This document shows, piece after piece, positions 15,389 to 20,952 of a DNA stretch of 42,884 nt; the first letter of the stretch is position 1, and each line of letters opens with the position of its first letter. Origin of the DNA: Clostridia bacterium (GTDB lineage Bacteria; Bacillota; Clostridia; Christensenellales; Aristaeellaceae); assembly GCA_017434085.1 (NCBI GenBank), contig JAFRFY010000080.1, forward strand, positions 1 through 42,884, given 5' to 3'. Position numbers and translations under genes: made by a program. Below the pieces are notes generated by a model, which did no database searches, was not told where the DNA came from, and worked only from the letters and a program-made list of their open reading frames with translations.

Positions 15389-15417
15389 TTGTGCGCGCGG
15401 CGGCGGGCTGGTATAAT
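15389..15417 (+). promoter_or_regulatory. Promoter of the TIR/RyR operon
   Basis: TTGTGC (15389-15394) and a perfect TATAAT (15412-15417) are 17 bp apart, with TGG forming an extended -10. The spacer is entirely GC-rich. The transcript would start near 15424, about 47 bases before the ATG. Confidence 0.75.
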
Positions 15418-15431
15418 GTTGTTAACATTAT
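15413..15431. promoter_or_regulatory. Operator-like palindrome overlapping the TIR operon -10 and start site
   Basis: ATAATGTT and AACATTAT are perfect 8-bp arms around GTT, overlapping the -10 box and predicted transcription start. A protein bound here would block initiation, so repression is likely. Confidence 0.6.
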
Positions 15432-15470
15432 CACGACAGCTGCAACGGACCGACAGGATTGGGAGCGCAT

Positions 15471-17564
15471 ATGGCAAACAGCGTCAATACATCAAGCGCG
15501 ACGGTACGCACCTGCGACATATTCATCAGCTACCGTCGGGACGGCGGCGACATGACCGCCATGTACTTCTATCAGGCGCTCAAGGAGCGCGGCTACAAGG
15601 TGTTCTACGACCTCGAGGTGCTCCGCGCGGGCAAGTTCAACGAGGCGCTGCTGGATTCCATACAATCCTGCAAGGACTTCGTGCTGATACTGTCCCCCCA
15701 CGCCCTGGACCGCTGCAGCGACGAGAGCGACTGGGTGCGCCGGGAGATCGCGGAGGCCCTGCGCGCGAAGAAGAACATCGTGCCGGTGATGCTGAAGGGC
15801 TTCGCCTTTCCCGAGAAGCTGCCGGAGGATATCGACGACATACGCTATCAGAACGGCCTGACCTGCACCACGGAGTACTTCGAGGAGAGCATCAACCGGC
15901 TGTGCGACCGCTATCTGAATTCCCTGCCCGCCTCGGCGACGAAGAAGCGCAGCCCGCTCATCCCGGTGCTGGCGGTGATCGCGGCGCTGGCGGTGGCCTT
16001 CGGCGGCTACATGGCGTTCAGGGGCGGGAAATCCCCCGCGCCGACGCCCGAGCCCACCGCCACAGTGGAAATCACGGAGGCGCCCACGGCCACGCCCGTC
16101 CCCACGGCCACCCCGCAACCCACCGAAGCCCCCACGGAAGCGCCCACGGCCACGCCCGTCCCCACCGACACCCCCGAGCCCATAACGGAACCCGGGCTCA
16201 AGGTCGTGAAGGACACCGACTTCCCGGCGCTTTATCGGGGCATGGACACGGTCGCCGGCATCCCGGAATTTGACGACGACGCCTATCGGGAGCTGCTGGG
16301 CAACGCCCCCGCCTTCAACCTCCCGAACGTGCGGCGGCGGGACGTGGCCTCCGTCACCTTCCTGCCCACGCTGGAGGGCGCGCCGGAGGACGCCGTGGAT
16401 GTCTCCGACGCCGCCGACGGCCGTGTGCTGGCCTGGGCCACGCCCTACGGCGAGCTGTACGACCTGACCATCGCCGGGGACGGCGGCGTGAAGGTGCTGG
16501 AGTGCGACGGCCTGTCCCCCATGTTCTCCTACTTCTTCAACCTGGAGAGGGTCGATTTCAACGGCTGCGTCGATATGTCGGAGCGCACGGACTTCTCCCG
16601 GCTGTTCTGGTGCTGCCACAATCTAAAGGAAGTGAACTTCGACGGGGTCTGCACCGGCAACGCCGTCACCTTCAGCGGCCTCTTCGGCGGCTGCTGGGTA
16701 CTGGAATCGGTGGACGTCACAGGCTTCGACACCTCCCGCGCGGAGTCCTTCGACGGCATGTTCCTCGATTGCAGTCAACTCGCCTCCCTGGACGTCACCG
16801 GCTTCGACACCGGCCACTGCCGGAACATGGAATCCATGTTCATCGGCTGTGAATCGCTCAAATCGCTGGACCTCTCCGGCTTCGACACCTCCCGCGTGCA
16901 GCAGATGGAGTACATGTTCGAGGGCTGCAAAAGCCTCGAAGCGCTGGACCTGAGCGCCTTTGACACCGCCAGGGTGACCAATATGGAGCGCATGTTCGGC
17001 AACTGCGAGAACCTGAACGCCCTCGACCTGTCCGGCTTCGATACGGGGCGCGTCACCAACATGAAGGAGATGTTCATGCGCTGCATCAACCTCGTGGACC
17101 TGAACATCAGCGCCTTCAACACCGGGCGCGTGCAGAACATGTTCGGCATGTTCAACGACTGTGAAAACCTCGCCACCCTTGACATCGGCGGCTTCGACAC
17201 CAGCCGCGTGGAGGACATGGCCTGCGTGTTCTTCGGCTGCAAGCAGCTGGACGGGCTGGACCTGTCCGGCTGGGACACCGGCAGGGCGGAGACCATGAGC
17301 CATATGTTCGCCGTGTGCGAATCCCTGTATAAGCTGGATCTGTCGAACTGGAACACCTCCGGCGTGACCAACATGAGCGTCATGTTCAGCATGTGCCGCT
17401 CCATGGTGGAGCTGAACCTGTCCGGCTGGGACGTCTCCCATGTGACGGACATGAGCCGCATGTTCGAGGATTGCGGGCGGCTGGAGAGCATCGGGCGCGA
17501 CCCCGAAAGCTTCGCCCGCGGCAACACCCAGGGCATGTACGAAGGGTGCGACAATCTTAAATAA
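15471..17564 (+). CDS. TIR domain - membrane segment - Thr/Pro stalk - 26-residue LRR-like repeat receptor
   Basis: The 697-residue protein has a TIR domain at about 14-150 (CDIFISYRRDGGD, KVFYDLEVL, DFVLILSPHAL). E92 in SDWVRREIAEAL sits where the NADase glutamate of catalytic TIR domains lies. One membrane segment follows at 162-183, preceded by KKR, which places the TIR inside the cell. A Thr/Pro/Glu stalk covers about 187-240. From about 351 to the end are roughly 13 copies of a 26-residue repeat (MFxxCxxLxxLDLSGFDTS), known as DUF285/BspA-like surface repeats and leucine-rich-repeat related. The start at 15471 follows GGGAG; a TTG at 15459 is possible. It heads a three-gene operon with two RyR-domain membrane proteins, and looks like a surface receptor with a signalling TIR. 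Confidence 0.9.
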   Translation: MANSVNTSSATVRTCDIFISYRRDGGDMTAMYFYQALKERGYKVFYDLEVLRAGKFNEALLDSIQSCKDFVLILSPHALDRCSDESDWVRREIAEALRAKKNIVPVMLKGFAFPEKLPEDIDDIRYQNGLTCTTEYFEESINRLCDRYLNSLPASATKKRSPLIPVLAVIAALAVAFGGYMAFRGGKSPAPTPEPTATVEITEAPTATPVPTATPQPTEAPTEAPTATPVPTDTPEPITEPGLKVVKDTDFPALYRGMDTVAGIPEFDDDAYRELLGNAPAFNLPNVRRRDVASVTFLPTLEGAPEDAVDVSDAADGRVLAWATPYGELYDLTIAGDGGVKVLECDGLSPMFSYFFNLERVDFNGCVDMSERTDFSRLFWCCHNLKEVNFDGVCTGNAVTFSGLFGGCWVLESVDVTGFDTSRAESFDGMFLDCSQLASLDVTGFDTGHCRNMESMFIGCESLKSLDLSGFDTSRVQQMEYMFEGCKSLEALDLSAFDTARVTNMERMFGNCENLNALDLSGFDTGRVTNMKEMFMRCINLVDLNISAFNTGRVQNMFGMFNDCENLATLDIGGFDTSRVEDMACVFFGCKQLDGLDLSGWDTGRAETMSHMFAVCESLYKLDLSNWNTSGVTNMSVMFSMCRSMVELNLSGWDVSHVTDMSRMFEDCGRLESIGRDPESFARGNTQGMYEGCDNLK

Positions 17565-17582
17565 TTAAACGGAAAGGCGCTG

Positions 17583-19103
17583 ATAACCATCAACGGCGGA
17601 AAAAGGCTCAAACGGCTGATCGCGGCGGGCATCGGCGTCTACATACTGATGCTCCTGCTGCTGGTCGCGCTGGAATCCCCCCGGGAGGACGCCATGATCG
17701 ACAGCCTCCCCAAGGCGGTGTGGTACTCGCTGGTGACCCTCTCCAGCGTGGGCTACGGCGACATGACCCCCGTGACCCCCGGCGGCAAGGTCGTGGGCGG
17801 CGCGTTCGTCATCATGAGCGCGGGCCTGCTGGCGCTGCTGGTGGGGAGCGTCTGCGCCGCCGTCACCGGCAGCCTCTACCCCCGGTTCAGGCTGTGGCGG
17901 CGCCGGCGGGCGCGGTGGTACGTGTTCGCCGGGGACAACGCCGCCTCCCGGGCGCTCTCCGCGGGGCTCCCGGACGGGCTCAGGGTGTTCTGCGGCACGG
18001 CGTGCACCCCGGAGCCGGACGCCATCGCCCTGGACATGTCCCCGGAGGCGCTCATGCGCCTGCCCTTCGCCTCCGAAGGCGCGCGCGTGCTGTTTGCGAT
18101 GGACGAGGACATCTCCGCCAATGAGCGCCTCGCCGCCGCGCTGAAGGACAAGCCGGTGACCGTCTACTGCCGGGGCGACGGCCTGGACGAGGCCCTGCCG
18201 GGCAACGTGGTGCTCTTCGGCGACGCGGAGTGCGCCGCCCGGCTGTACTGGCAGACCCGGCCCTGGCACTACGACGGCGAACGCGCGGCGCTGATCGGGC
18301 GCGGCCGCTTCGCGCAGGCGCTGCTGATGCAGGGGCTTTTGACCGCGCCGCCGGGGTGCGCCATCGACCTGTTCGGCGACTGGTCCCTGTGGCGGACCGT
18401 CCACGGGGCGCTTTCCGGTGTGCCCGACCCGGAATTCGAGCTGCGCTTCCACCCGGAGGACTGGCGTGCCTGCCCCGACGTACTGTTAAGCGCCGACCGC
18501 GTGACGCTGTGCGCCGACGACCCCGAGGCCAACCGCGGGGCGCTGGATCTCATCCGGCGCTACTACGTCGTGCCCGGCGCACTGCACGCCCGGTGTCCCA
18601 AGGGCCTGCGGGACGTGTGGTACTTCGGCGACGAGCTTGGCATATTCACCCCCGAGCTGGTGATGAAGCAGGCCCTCAGCGCCCGCGCGCGGCAGCTTCT
18701 CGAGATGTACCGCCAAAGCGCGGACTATGACGTGCCCCCCTGGGAGGCGCTGCCGGAGTTTTTGAAGCGCTCCAATCTCGCCTCGGCGGACCATCTGCTG
18801 ACCAAGCTGCGGCTTTTGCTCCGCGAGGATGTTCCCGCCCTCACCCCGGAGGCCTGCCGCCGCGCCGCGGAGGTCTACGAGCGCGCCGACACCGCGCTGG
18901 TGGAGCGCTGCCGGTATATCGAGCACGCCCGCTGGTGCCTGTTCCACGCGCTCTACAACTGGCAATACGCCCCCACCCGGGACAACGCCCTGCGCCGCCA
19001 CCCGATGCTCGTCCCCTACGCGCAGCTCGACGAGGCCGAGCGCCGCAAGGACGACAACGCCTGGCGGATGTTCCGTCAGCTTGCCGGGAATCCCCCGTCA
19101 TGA
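17583..19103 (+). CDS. Two-TM potassium-channel-like protein with NAD-fold (RCK-like) domains and C-terminal RyR domain
   Basis: Read from 17583 the protein has 506 residues. TM1 is about 10-30, the pore loop carries the selectivity filter SSVGYGD at 54-60, and TM2 is about 69-95. Two Rossmann-like (TrkA-N/RCK) units follow, the second with LIGRGRFAQALL. The C-terminus, about 400-500, matches a RyR (ryanodine receptor) domain: EHARWCLFHALYNW, then RRHPMLVPYAQLDEAERRKD, preceded by the typical WEALPEFLKRSN. The start is unclear. The first ATG (17649) would cut TM1 in half; GGAAAGG at 17571-17577 instead points to ATA at 17583 or CTG at 17580. It is in the same frame as the TIR gene, 18 bases after its stop. 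Probably a nucleotide-gated channel. Confidence 0.85.
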   Translation: MTINGGKRLKRLIAAGIGVYILMLLLLVALESPREDAMIDSLPKAVWYSLVTLSSVGYGDMTPVTPGGKVVGGAFVIMSAGLLALLVGSVCAAVTGSLYPRFRLWRRRRARWYVFAGDNAASRALSAGLPDGLRVFCGTACTPEPDAIALDMSPEALMRLPFASEGARVLFAMDEDISANERLAAALKDKPVTVYCRGDGLDEALPGNVVLFGDAECAARLYWQTRPWHYDGERAALIGRGRFAQALLMQGLLTAPPGCAIDLFGDWSLWRTVHGALSGVPDPEFELRFHPEDWRACPDVLLSADRVTLCADDPEANRGALDLIRRYYVVPGALHARCPKGLRDVWYFGDELGIFTPELVMKQALSARARQLLEMYRQSADYDVPPWEALPEFLKRSNLASADHLLTKLRLLLREDVPALTPEACRRAAEVYERADTALVERCRYIEHARWCLFHALYNWQYAPTRDNALRRHPMLVPYAQLDEAERRKDDNAWRMFRQLAGNPPS

Positions 19104-19132
19104 CACGACCCGACCCCACATATTCCCTATGA
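19100..19132 (+). CDS. Possible 10-codon coupling reading frame
   Basis: An ATG overlapping the channel gene stop (ATGA at 19100-19103) opens a frame of ten codons (MTRPDPTYSL) whose TGA stop overlaps the ATG of the next gene (ATGA at 19129-19132). The next gene has no Shine-Dalgarno site of its own, so ribosomes ending here could re-start on it. It may equally be chance. Confidence 0.3.
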   Translation: MTRPDPTYSL

Positions 19133-20907
19133 AGATACTGTTCGTCATACTGCTCACCGCCTTGGGCTTTCTGGCGGTGATACTGAACCTCGCACTGGAC
19201 ACCCGCTTCAAGGCGCGGAGCATGGGCTTCTGCGCCTGCCTTGCCGCGGTGTCCGGCCTGCTCATGTACGGCTACGCCTTCACCTGGACGGGCGGCTTCT
19301 GCGCCACCACCGTCATCCGCACGCTGATGACGATCTGCCGCATGTTCGCCGGCGTCAACGACCTGGGCACTTTTTCCCAGACGCCGCTGAGCCAAAACGC
19401 CTACATCATGACCGGCTTCTGGCTCACCCATTTCATGGCCTTCTACGTCACGGCCAGCGCGGCCATCGCGGTGCTGGGGCAGCAGCTGCTCCGGTTTCTG
19501 CGCGTCAGGCTTCTGCGCGTCGGCGGGGTGACGCTGGTGTACGGCGCGACCCGGCAGACCGCGCGGCTGGTCCGGCTCCCCCGCGGGGGGCGGGGCCTGG
19601 TGTGCGTGACGCGAAACGACGACGACATCGCCGACGCCCTGGGCGGCGTCATATTCCCGGACGACGCGGAGGGCCGCGCCGCCGCCTCGGTGCTCCGCCA
19701 CATCAGCCCGCGGCGGCCGCTGTCCGCGTACTGCGTCAGCGCCAACGCCGCCGACAACCTGCGCTTCGCCGTCGCCCTGCGGGACGCCATGGCGGCGCGG
19801 GGCATGGACGGTTTAAACGCCAGCCTGTTCCTGCTGGGCGTGCCCGAAGCGCGGGCGGTGGACCTGCTGGCCGCGCCGGGTCGCTGCGGCTTCGGCAGCC
19901 TGTTCGCCTGCGACGACTGCGAACTCACCGCGCGCCAGGCCATCCGACGGCTGCCGCCCTGGTCCCGCGTGGACTTCGACGCCGACGGGCGGGCAAGGAA
20001 CGATCTGCGGGCGCTCGTGGTCGGCTTCGGCAGGATGGGCCAGGCCATGCTCCGGCAGCTGGTGATGAACGGCCAGTTCGAGGGCGGCGCCTTCCACGCC
20101 CAGGTGATCGACGCCCGCATGGACGACCTCTCCGGCCTGATGCGCGCCCGCTTTTCCGCCATGCTCGACGCCTACGACATACAGCTGATTCGGGAGGACG
20201 CCCGCGGCGCGGCCTTCTACGACCGGCTCGAGGCTTACGGGCCCGACATCATCGCGCTGTGCGCCGGAAGCCGCAGCGCCAACGCCGACCTCGCCCGGGC
20301 GCTGGAGCGCTTCTACGAGGTGCGTGACCGCCGCCCCGCCGTCGTGCAGTGCGCCGAGGGCAGCGTGGCGCTGGAGGACGCGGAGTACCGGCTGGAGCAC
20401 ATCGACGTGCGCGCCATGGACCGTCTGGCCATGGTGCTCAACCATACCTACTGCAACGGCCCCTCCCCGGAGGCCGACTGGCGGACCTGCGACGCCTTCA
20501 GCCGCGCAAGCTGCCGCGCCTCGGTGGACTTCTATCCCGCCTTTTGCCGCATCCTGGGGGCCGAAACCCCGGAGGCGCTCGAGCGGCGCTGGCCCCCGAA
20601 GGGCGCGCTGCTTGAGAACATGGCCCGCACCGAGCATCGGCGCTGGTGCGCGTTTCACCTGGCCATGGGCTACCGTCCCATGACCGGCGCGGAGCTGGAA
20701 CAGCGCGCGGCGCGCGTCAGGGCCGGGGAGGACATCCGCCTCGGCAAGGACACCCGCGCCATGGCCCACGCCTGCCTCGTGCCCTGGGAGGCGCTGGACG
20801 ACCTCTCAAAGCGCGAATACGCCGCCACCGGCAGGCGCGTGGACTACAAGCAGATGGACGTCAATAACATACTCGCCATCCCCGAGATCATGCGGCGGGA
20901 GGGGTAA
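19129..20907 (+). CDS. Membrane protein with two NAD-binding-like folds and C-terminal RyR domain
   Basis: The 592-residue protein has membrane segments at about 1-23, 33-52 and 91-121. There is no GYG filter, so it is not a standard potassium channel. Two Rossmann-like units follow: GVTLVYGATRQTARLVRL at 133-150 and ALVVGFGRMGQAMLRQL at 295-311, the second a good TrkA-N dinucleotide motif. Residues about 495-592 form a RyR domain: MARTEHRRWCAFHLAMGY, AMAHACLVPWEALDDLSKRE and a final ILAIPEIM. It parallels the upstream channel protein in layout and may form a complex with it or provide a second ligand-sensing membrane effector. No clear ribosome binding site precedes the ATG, so translation is probably coupled to the preceding gene. 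A terminator follows. Confidence 0.83.
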   Translation: MKILFVILLTALGFLAVILNLALDTRFKARSMGFCACLAAVSGLLMYGYAFTWTGGFCATTVIRTLMTICRMFAGVNDLGTFSQTPLSQNAYIMTGFWLTHFMAFYVTASAAIAVLGQQLLRFLRVRLLRVGGVTLVYGATRQTARLVRLPRGGRGLVCVTRNDDDIADALGGVIFPDDAEGRAAASVLRHISPRRPLSAYCVSANAADNLRFAVALRDAMAARGMDGLNASLFLLGVPEARAVDLLAAPGRCGFGSLFACDDCELTARQAIRRLPPWSRVDFDADGRARNDLRALVVGFGRMGQAMLRQLVMNGQFEGGAFHAQVIDARMDDLSGLMRARFSAMLDAYDIQLIREDARGAAFYDRLEAYGPDIIALCAGSRSANADLARALERFYEVRDRRPAVVQCAEGSVALEDAEYRLEHIDVRAMDRLAMVLNHTYCNGPSPEADWRTCDAFSRASCRASVDFYPAFCRILGAETPEALERRWPPKGALLENMARTEHRRWCAFHLAMGYRPMTGAELEQRAARVRAGEDIRLGKDTRAMAHACLVPWEALDDLSKREYAATGRRVDYKQMDVNNILAIPEIMRREG

Positions 20908-20923
20908 AACCATACATAACGAG

Positions 20924-20952
20924 CACGACCACCGGCTATGCCGGTGGTCGTG
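20924..20952. terminator. Terminator hairpin between convergent TIR operon and ricT
   Basis: A perfect 13-bp stem (CACGACCACCGGC and complement) with loop TAT lies between two converging genes, 16 bases after the RyR gene stop and 9 bases before the ricT stop. T-tracts are weak on both sides, but it is well placed to serve both strands. Confidence 0.7.

Follow-up and report, generated by a model that had tools for sequence, protein, structure and literature searches.

A three-gene operon in a 42,884-nt window (the whole stretch of DNA analysed, contig JAFRFY010000080.1 of assembly GCA_017434085.1 from a Clostridia bacterium of the Aristaeellaceae, here G000) encodes a TIR receptor, a potassium channel ending in a RyR domain and a membrane protein related to this channel, and we consider it with moderate confidence a receptor-to-channel module in which TIR receptors would make an adenosine diphosphate (ADP)-ribose-type signal read by the RyR channel. 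Seen in the sequence are the domains, the layout of the receptor with one transmembrane segment (TM), the catalytic Glu, the K+ filter, the pocket residues of the RyR domain and the genetic coupling of the genes. In the proposed scheme, the receptor would hold its TIR domain inside the cell and a repeat domain outside (DUF285 in the window; Sel1, TPR, leucine-rich repeat (LRR), beta-propeller, MORN/RHS-type or none in relatives), and TIR domains would come together upon a cue from outside or from the envelope. The clustered TIRs might then convert nicotinamide adenine dinucleotide (NAD+) to an ADP-ribose-type nucleotide, probably a cyclic ADP-ribose (cADPR) isomer, binding of which to the RyR pocket of gene 2, and probably also of gene 3, would gate the K+-selective gene 2 pore, so that K+ flux would alter membrane potential and turgor and the cell would be halted or protected. 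A physical partnership of the gene 2 and gene 3 products, the stoichiometry of the partners and a role in defence or envelope stress are further suppositions of this scheme. In the following, G-numbers denote genomes and L-numbers loci; the genes and their parts are, in positions of the window:

15471..17564, plus strand: gene 1, single-pass TIR receptor of 697 amino acids, with TIR domain, one TM, a proline/threonine-rich linker and DUF285/PARCEL repeats.
15519..15854, plus strand: TIR domain (TIR_2) with the candidate catalytic Glu E92 (codon 15744-15746).
15957..16013, plus strand: single TM of gene 1, residues 163-181, from a hydropathy scan.
17583..19103, plus strand: gene 2, two-TM potassium channel of 506 amino acids, with a Rossmann-type cytosolic part (GxGxxA) and a C-terminal RyR domain.
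17736..17762, plus strand: pore and selectivity filter of gene 2, residues 52-60, TLSSVGYGD, with T52 and GYGD in 87 of 87 alignment rows.
18894..19061, plus strand: RyR domain PF02026 of gene 2, with pocket residues H448 (18924), W451 (18933), H473 (18999) and D490 (19050).
19129..20907, plus strand: gene 3, membrane protein with an N-terminus of unassigned fold, a tandem Rossmann-like cytosolic part and a RyR-like C-terminus.
20611..20904, plus strand: RyR-like end of gene 3 with H503, W506, H547 and D577.

The original prediction of a TIR domain with E92 as candidate catalytic Glu is well corroborated. Pfam recognises TIR_2 (2.2e-14) and DUF285 (7.4e-96) in gene 1, and E92 lies within the motif W88-V89-x-x-E92, being kept in 11/11 rows of the TIR profile and in all 13 cluster TIRs of the family described below. 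When this profile is compared with known structures, the NAD hydrolases SARM1 and tir-1 rank at the top, and E92 aligns with the Glu of DWVHKEI, which we take to be the catalytic residue of SARM1 (in WVHKEI). With the Glu kept and SARM1-type proteins as nearest relatives, nothing at this level points to a TIR fold devoid of the NAD pocket, and NAD cleavage by this TIR may be presumed. The hydropathy scan gives one TM directly after the TIR domain in gene 1 and two in gene 2; according to the positive-inside rule, the TIR is predicted to face the inside and the DUF285 repeats the outside.

Gene 2 is, as originally proposed, a GYG-filter channel ending in a RyR domain, showing an Ion_trans_2 match (7.2e-12), the filter SVGYGD and a PF02026 match of 34.0 bits (3.6e-8) above the curated cut-off of 27.4 bits. 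Among proteins of known structure, its profile matches K+ channels as well as ryanodine receptors, including the RyR1 chimera 6uhi with 81 bits for two copies. Neither the domain matches of genes 1 and 2 nor the grouping of the genes can be put down to chance. As no ATG, GTG or TTG codon is found ahead of the first TM, gene 2 likely starts with ATA at 17583, because a relative 87% identical (G160) has ATG at this position preceded by the same ribosome-binding site. The ATA at 17583-17585 itself might represent a rare start, an assembly error or a weakened gene.

For gene 3, described in the original prediction as a membrane protein with a RyR end, the profile match to PF02026 is below the curated cut-off (12.5 bits), and TrkA_N matches in two relatives are below cut-off as well. 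A profile-profile comparison, however, relates gene 3 to gene 2 with 99.6% probability over 388 columns, corresponding to the whole cytosolic part with the RyR end included, and the pocket positions are occupied by H503 (57/57 rows), W506 (57/57), H547 (56/57) and D577 (56/56, one row gapped). In a smaller alignment (A2), unlike in the 57-row set, Q is found at the third pocket site in four rows. Both the homology to gene 2 and the kept pocket residues argue for a diverged RyR copy, so that the RyR claim holds for gene 2 by its profile match and for gene 3 by kinship. The membrane parts of the two proteins do not align (3.7%); a profile search of the PDB with gene 3 gave no convincing relative (best E 0.017, an unrelated protein), and its membrane part alone gave a single match at E 0.42. 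A second channel in gene 3 was accordingly considered and rejected as unproven, its membrane part being unlike that of gene 2 and having no convincing PDB relative.

According to the accessible part of the May 2026 preprint on RyDEP (PMC13232231), this phage RyR protein binds and cleaves 2'cADPR and 3'cADPR with H75, W78, H100 and D117, while six of eight phage homologues bound signals and the tested ones other than RyDEP did not cleave. These residues, as given in that part, correspond to H448, W451, H473 and D490 of gene 2 with identical spacing (+3, +25 and +42 from the first His) and are invariant in 13/13 family genomes. Among the rows with both gene 3 and a TIR, H448, W451 and H473 are present in 45/45 and D490 in 40/45, and all four residues are likewise kept in the 17 rows with gene 3 in which no TIR was seen (one of them gapped at the last two sites). 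A clade of 21 rows without gene 3 retains the K+ filter in 21/21 and, in the 20 rows where the pocket is readable, H448 and W451 in 20/20, H473 in 1/20 and D490 in 0/20. The sole keeper of H473 in this clade (L143) is also its only member with a TIR in its stretch (15 bp downstream). At L125:9593-12394, within the same clade, the RyR channel has an altered pocket and stands beside genes reading as TrkH/TrkA by eye, and the same two neighbour gene clusters recur in 8 loci of the clade, in keeping with a plain potassium role after loss of the link to the TIR. When aligned, three phage RyR proteins share both His with the RyR ends of genes 2 and 3 and, in addition, the Asp with that of gene 2, while one of them has R for the Trp; altogether, 277 phage records carry a similar RyR end at E values up to 1. 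In Arthrobacter phage Zeina, the RyR-like gene gp73 (L162:481-1376) precedes a PnuC-like nicotinamide riboside transporter gene by two genes, possibly forming an NAD-related counter-defence pair.

Co-occurrence across genomes, which the original prediction had demanded, is clearly found in the family. Among 200 genomes, the window's included, gene 2 has a match somewhere in 57 and is near-complete in 13 (the copy of G155 being cut by a contig end); in these, a TIR is found in the same cluster in 13/13 and gene 3 in 12/13. The gene order is variable, with TIR-gene 2-gene 3 in G000, G160 and G172, gene 2-gene 3-TIR in eight genomes, gene 2-TIR-gene 3 in G026 and gene 2-TIR in G198. A search of 18 genomes (the 13 and five with weaker gene 2 matches) revealed 41 TIRs, and with about two TIRs per genome, a random gene is therefore expected to have a TIR within 5 kb in approximately 1% of cases by our own estimate. 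By alignment, the cluster TIR partners are of the Sel1 type in 9/13 and of the DUF285 type in 4/13, Pfam having been applied among the receptor partners of these clusters to the window gene, L034 and L038 only. The TIR of gene 1 itself reaches at least 267 bits in only four of the 13 genomes. A TIR-Sel1 receptor of at least 243 bits, a threshold chosen after the gap was visible, is found in exactly these 13 genomes and in 0/187 others (the highest score among these being 155 bits). In nine of the 13, this receptor is the TIR of the cluster itself, whereas in the genomes with DUF285-type clusters (G000, G160, G172 and G026) it is encoded on another contig. The copy in the window's own genome, L169:4427-5932 (G000:C6), is an orphan receptor of the TIR-Sel1 type and kin of the receptors in gene 2 operons of other genera.

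In line with this, three of four gene 2-positive genomes among 12 further members of the genus (G200, G203 and G210, at 343-403 bits) harbour the TIR-Sel1 receptor on contigs other than that of the operon, whereas the fourth, G202, shows only 117 bits; in the eight negative genomes it was found in 0/8 (best 74 bits). Genus-wide, this amounts to 6/7 gene 2-positive versus 0/16 negative genomes, an exact probability of 7/100947 when calculated by hand and uncorrected for kinship. As judged from these distributions, the TIR is genetically coupled to genes 2 and 3 more than by chance, separate contigs included. Gene 2 is patchily distributed, being present in 7/23 genus members tested, and the surroundings of the operon in G172 differ from those in G000, G160 and G200. 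In a class-wide search at E 1e-20, 14/391 genomes match, mostly partially.

The association extends beyond the family. The wider set comprises the best 80 of 160 confirmed gene 2 relatives in genome contigs (L079-L158), of which at least nine (L079, L090, L114, L140, L141, L080, L081, L088 and L091) were already among the counted genomes; 78/80 are labelled as Bacillota, many of them from gut or rumen. Gene 3 adjoins gene 2 in 56/80 loci, and a TIR is present in the stretch in 39 of these 56 (two cut by contig ends) versus 3 of the 24 without gene 3, a count combining the TIRs detected by a TIR model with two truncated ones recognised by eye at contig ends (L091 and L133). The 46 TIRs detected by the model in 40 loci start in many cases within 150 bp of the module and in others at up to 6.9 kb. 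Exactly one TM follows the TIR domain in 45 of the 46, the exception (L115) being cut by a contig end, and lysine/arginine counts are 5.3 before versus 2.3 after the TM, with more before it in 43/45. In a modest control from the same genomes, a single TM was found in 13/13 cluster TIRs versus 10/17 TIRs elsewhere. The outer parts, in contrast to this constant layout, are diverse: among ten representatives, Pfam recognises DUF285, beta-propeller, TPR, LRR (in the receptor of one relative, L109) and MORN/RHS domains, and in three nothing beyond the TIR (L083, L100 and L112). Five receptors of the TPR type (Pfam applied to one) are accompanied by a short second TIR with one TM and without the Glu motif (L102:6074-7006 and its kin in L122, L143, L156 and L158), which is possibly a pseudo-enzyme partner.

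On a gene 2 tree of 87 rows, 49 of them labelled with 9 partner classes (a manual assignment based on the motif of the TIR, the length and the Pfam representatives, in which L100 joins L109 on account of its TIR despite having no LRR match), the TIR partner class changes at least 14 times, whereas the order of genes 2 and 3 changes once. A broader formulation would be a bacterial receptor family built like Toll-like receptors with swappable outer domains, whose cADPR-type messenger would gate one shared RyR K+ channel, sometimes with two receptor types per cell; we put it forward tentatively, its chances being slightly short of even. A significant linkage between gene 3 and TIR (Fisher, 2.3e-6) was not retained as a main argument, since a single clade accounts for 21 of the 25 tree rows lacking gene 3 and the test is therefore not free of phylogeny. 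Among the tree rows, L088 and L089 have nearly identical gene 2 sequences while being labelled Clostridiales and Coriobacteriaceae, respectively, which makes one of the two bin labels doubtful.

Several observations weigh against a receptor-to-channel module. TIRs are common, occurring in 18/18 genomes searched and hence also in the five without near-complete gene 2; six genomes in which gene 2 is not near-complete possess kin of the gene 1 TIR (127-175 bits, 42-53% identical), and TIRs outside the clusters, too, often have a single TM behind the TIR domain, as seen in the control. The score threshold for the TIR-Sel1 receptor was set in hindsight, and its unlinked cases come mostly from one genus. 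Furthermore, no TIR was seen in the stretch read at 17/56 loci with genes 2 and 3; in nine of them, fewer than 700 bp flank the module on one or both sides, and in the other eight, more than 700 bp on both sides, with more than 6 kb in two (L098 and L106). Regarding the pocket, D490 is replaced by N or Q in 5/45 rows, the loss of pocket residues coincides with absent gene 3 and TIR in one clade only, and all four residues are intact in four further rows lacking gene 3 (G198, L115, L123 and L142), with a TIR beside G198, L115 and L123 and none seen at L142; the contigs of L115, L123 and L142 end just before gene 2. A pair test on the tree yielded 4 pairs and has no power, and a pore in gene 3 is not identifiable by alignment to gene 2 or by the PDB profile search. 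Overall, the originally proposed circuit of NAD-derived signal and RyR channel has nevertheless held at the sequence level, with co-occurring genes, a RyR match and a retained TIR Glu, its exact ligand and gating direction being conjectural. The membrane depolarisation proposed along with it is not supported: the filter is of the K+ type, and opening should therefore release K+ and hyperpolarise the cell or deplete it of K+.

The same components would also fit an abortive defence of the Thoeris kind, in which the TIR would sense phage and a cADPR isomer would open the RyR K+ channel, resulting in altruistic arrest by K+ loss. Such a function, although rather unlikely, would fit the patchy occurrence in 7/23 genus members and the differing surroundings in G172 compared with G000, G160 and G200, and gene 1 weakly matches the ThsB and Thoeris type III models. 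On the other hand, the receptor repeats are predicted outside the cell, unlike in soluble infection sensors, no PADLOC model covers gene 2 or gene 3, and neither gene 2 in 50,697 phage records nor gene 2 or 3 in viral contigs has a match. Moreover, both nearest flanks of the operon in the window read as housekeeping, one being PSP1 (Pfam) and the other presumably HtpG. A defence would further be favoured by the likeness of the pocket to that of phage RyR proteins acting against Thoeris, as described in the accessible part of PMC13232231. In another alternative, the RyR ends would be enzymes or sponges terminating the TIR signal in the manner of the RyDEP glycosidase, while the Rossmann parts or direct contact would gate the channel. 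The catalytic pair of RyDEP (H75/D117 in that part of the report) is indeed present as H448/D490 in gene 2, and gene 3 shows next to no variation at H503 and D577; however, the tested phage homologues except RyDEP did not cleave according to the same source, five of the 45 TIR-linked rows have N or Q in place of D490, and fusion to a channel argues for a sensing rather than an enzymatic role, so that we regard this alternative as improbable.

Ordinary potassium homeostasis, with a housekeeping nucleotide such as adenosine triphosphate, NAD(H) or metabolic ADP-ribose controlling the channel pair and the TIR being a loose neighbour, is improbable to a similar degree. It would account for the Rossmann motifs, which are as in RCK/TrkA domains, for the clade without gene 3 beside TrkH/TrkA-like genes (by eye at L125; 8 loci) and for the 17/56 loci without TIR, whereas the TIR in 13/13 family genomes, also on separate contigs, and the loss of the pocket residues in just that clade without gene 3 speak against it. 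Many TIRs are plain NADases or scaffolds, and the TIR might thus only deplete NAD+ or touch the RyR channel as a scaffold, without a diffusible signal. A complex of this sort would be suited by the overlapping genes in relatives, but the conserved ligand-contact residues and the unlinked second receptor type accompanying the same channel make it very unlikely. Signalling from TIR receptor to RyR channel hence remains the preferred explanation.

As in Thoeris, a TIR with catalytic Glu stands beside an effector with a domain able to bind ADP-ribose-type nucleotides; here, however, the TIR is of the receptor type with TM and outer repeats, and the part of the effector would fall to a RyR K+ channel together with gene 3. 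Effectors of the ThsA type carry SIR2-SLOG, Macro-TM or caspase-like domains, none of which was detected in genes 2 and 3 with Pfam, PADLOC and NCBIfam, and neither gene has a PADLOC match or an NCBIfam match above cut-off. Bacterial K+ channels of the MthK/RCK type share two TMs, the GYGD filter and a Rossmann-type cytosolic part with gene 2, differing from it by the C-terminal RyR domain and the gene 3 neighbour found in 56/80 loci. Animal ryanodine receptors (R12 repeat) also bear the RyR domain on an ion channel, but are giant Ca2+ release channels, in contrast to the 506-residue two-TM K+ channel with one RyR copy per subunit. Toll-like receptors resemble the TIR receptors in having outer repeats, one TM and an inner TIR (the side being predicted, and some partners lacking recognised repeats), yet combine an LRR ectodomain with an adaptor-type TIR, whereas the window gene has DUF285/BspA-type repeats, keeps the Glu and is predicted to possess an enzymatic, SARM1-like TIR with a channel as output; the likeness is one of layout only and does not imply common descent of the whole proteins. 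RyDEP, finally, shares the PF02026 pocket of H, W, H and D, but is, according to the accessible part of its report (PMC13232231), a small soluble phage counter-defence protein, while the RyR domain found here ends a host membrane channel encoded with a TIR. In the literature searched by title and start of abstract, which does not cover the TIR survey preprint of Yirmiya et al. 2025 (doi 10.64898/2025.12.03.692087), no TIR-RyR channel system was found, and "ryanodine" is absent from the main texts of PMC9503650, PMC13142454 and PMC13174449. The statement that the combination is undescribed can thus be upheld within the searchable literature, the system being provisionally new because this survey lies outside the literature covered.

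The close spacing of the three genes was likewise as stated in the original prediction, with intergenic gaps of 18 and 25 nt when the gene 2 start is taken as ATA; in several relatives, module genes overlap by 4-8 nt, and nearly touching genes are common. Two possible signals frame the operon:

15389..15417, plus strand: promoter-like sequence read by eye, TTGTGC, 17 nt and a TG-extended -10 TATAAT (15412-15417).
20924..20952, no strand assigned: perfect 13-bp hairpin without T tract between gene 3 and the convergent PSP1 gene, read by eye.

The claimed promoter is backed by the conservation of its TG-extended -10 element in the 87% identical relative (G160), but a consensus promoter scan found no promoter and gave this sequence no score. 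Of the claimed terminator, the perfect hairpin is present, while the T tract is absent and a terminator scan reported none on the operon strand, the hairpin at 20924-20952 included. In G200, gene 1 is apparently broken (L173:7141-10087), with a TIR frame of about 300 amino acids and no single frame through the repeats, genes 2 and 3 being open.

RyR proteins are also associated with TIRs outside of this module. In three genomes, RyR proteins without K+ filter adjoin single-TM TIR receptors:

L047:8177-12496: G072, RyR protein without K+ filter by a TIR receptor.
L048:8262-14916: G107, RyR protein without K+ filter by a TIR receptor.
L046:4404-9170: G179, RyR protein without K+ filter by a TIR receptor.

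The RyR protein of G107 has no predicted TM, and the RyR match of G072 is just below cut-off. On plasmid pNP243 of Butyrivibrio fibrisolvens D1 (L181:6236-10815), a TIR protein that matches a beta-propeller weakly (below cut-off) is followed by a gene 3 homologue, annotated as "hypothetical protein", in which the pocket residues H, W, H and D are recognised by eye; no gene 2 is found among the annotated neighbours of this homologue. Because both the filterless RyR proteins and the gene 3 homologue of pNP243 adjoin TIRs, it may be the RyR end and not the K+ pore that constantly accompanies these TIRs. A spread of the genes by phages or plasmids was considered and rejected, as genes 2 and 3 are nearly matchless in the respective searches: for gene 2, no match was obtained in the 50,697 phage records or in viral contigs and one partial match in plasmids, and for gene 3, no match in viral contigs (phage records not searched) and one in plasmids.

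Nucleotide-signal TIR enzymes are known, but an outward-facing TIR receptor wired to a K+ channel via a RyR pocket would constitute a new branch. If the broader formulation of a receptor family built like Toll-like receptors is true, the RyR domain would be an ancient reader of TIR signals, used in bacterial channels, hijacked by phages and retained in animal ryanodine receptors. Such a branch would also help explain why RyR-domain proteins are found in many phages. The module would then offer a small bacterial model for the long-disputed link between cADPR and ryanodine receptors, in which pocket, ligand and gating are directly testable, and B. fibrisolvens D1 with pNP243 provides a cultured entry point.

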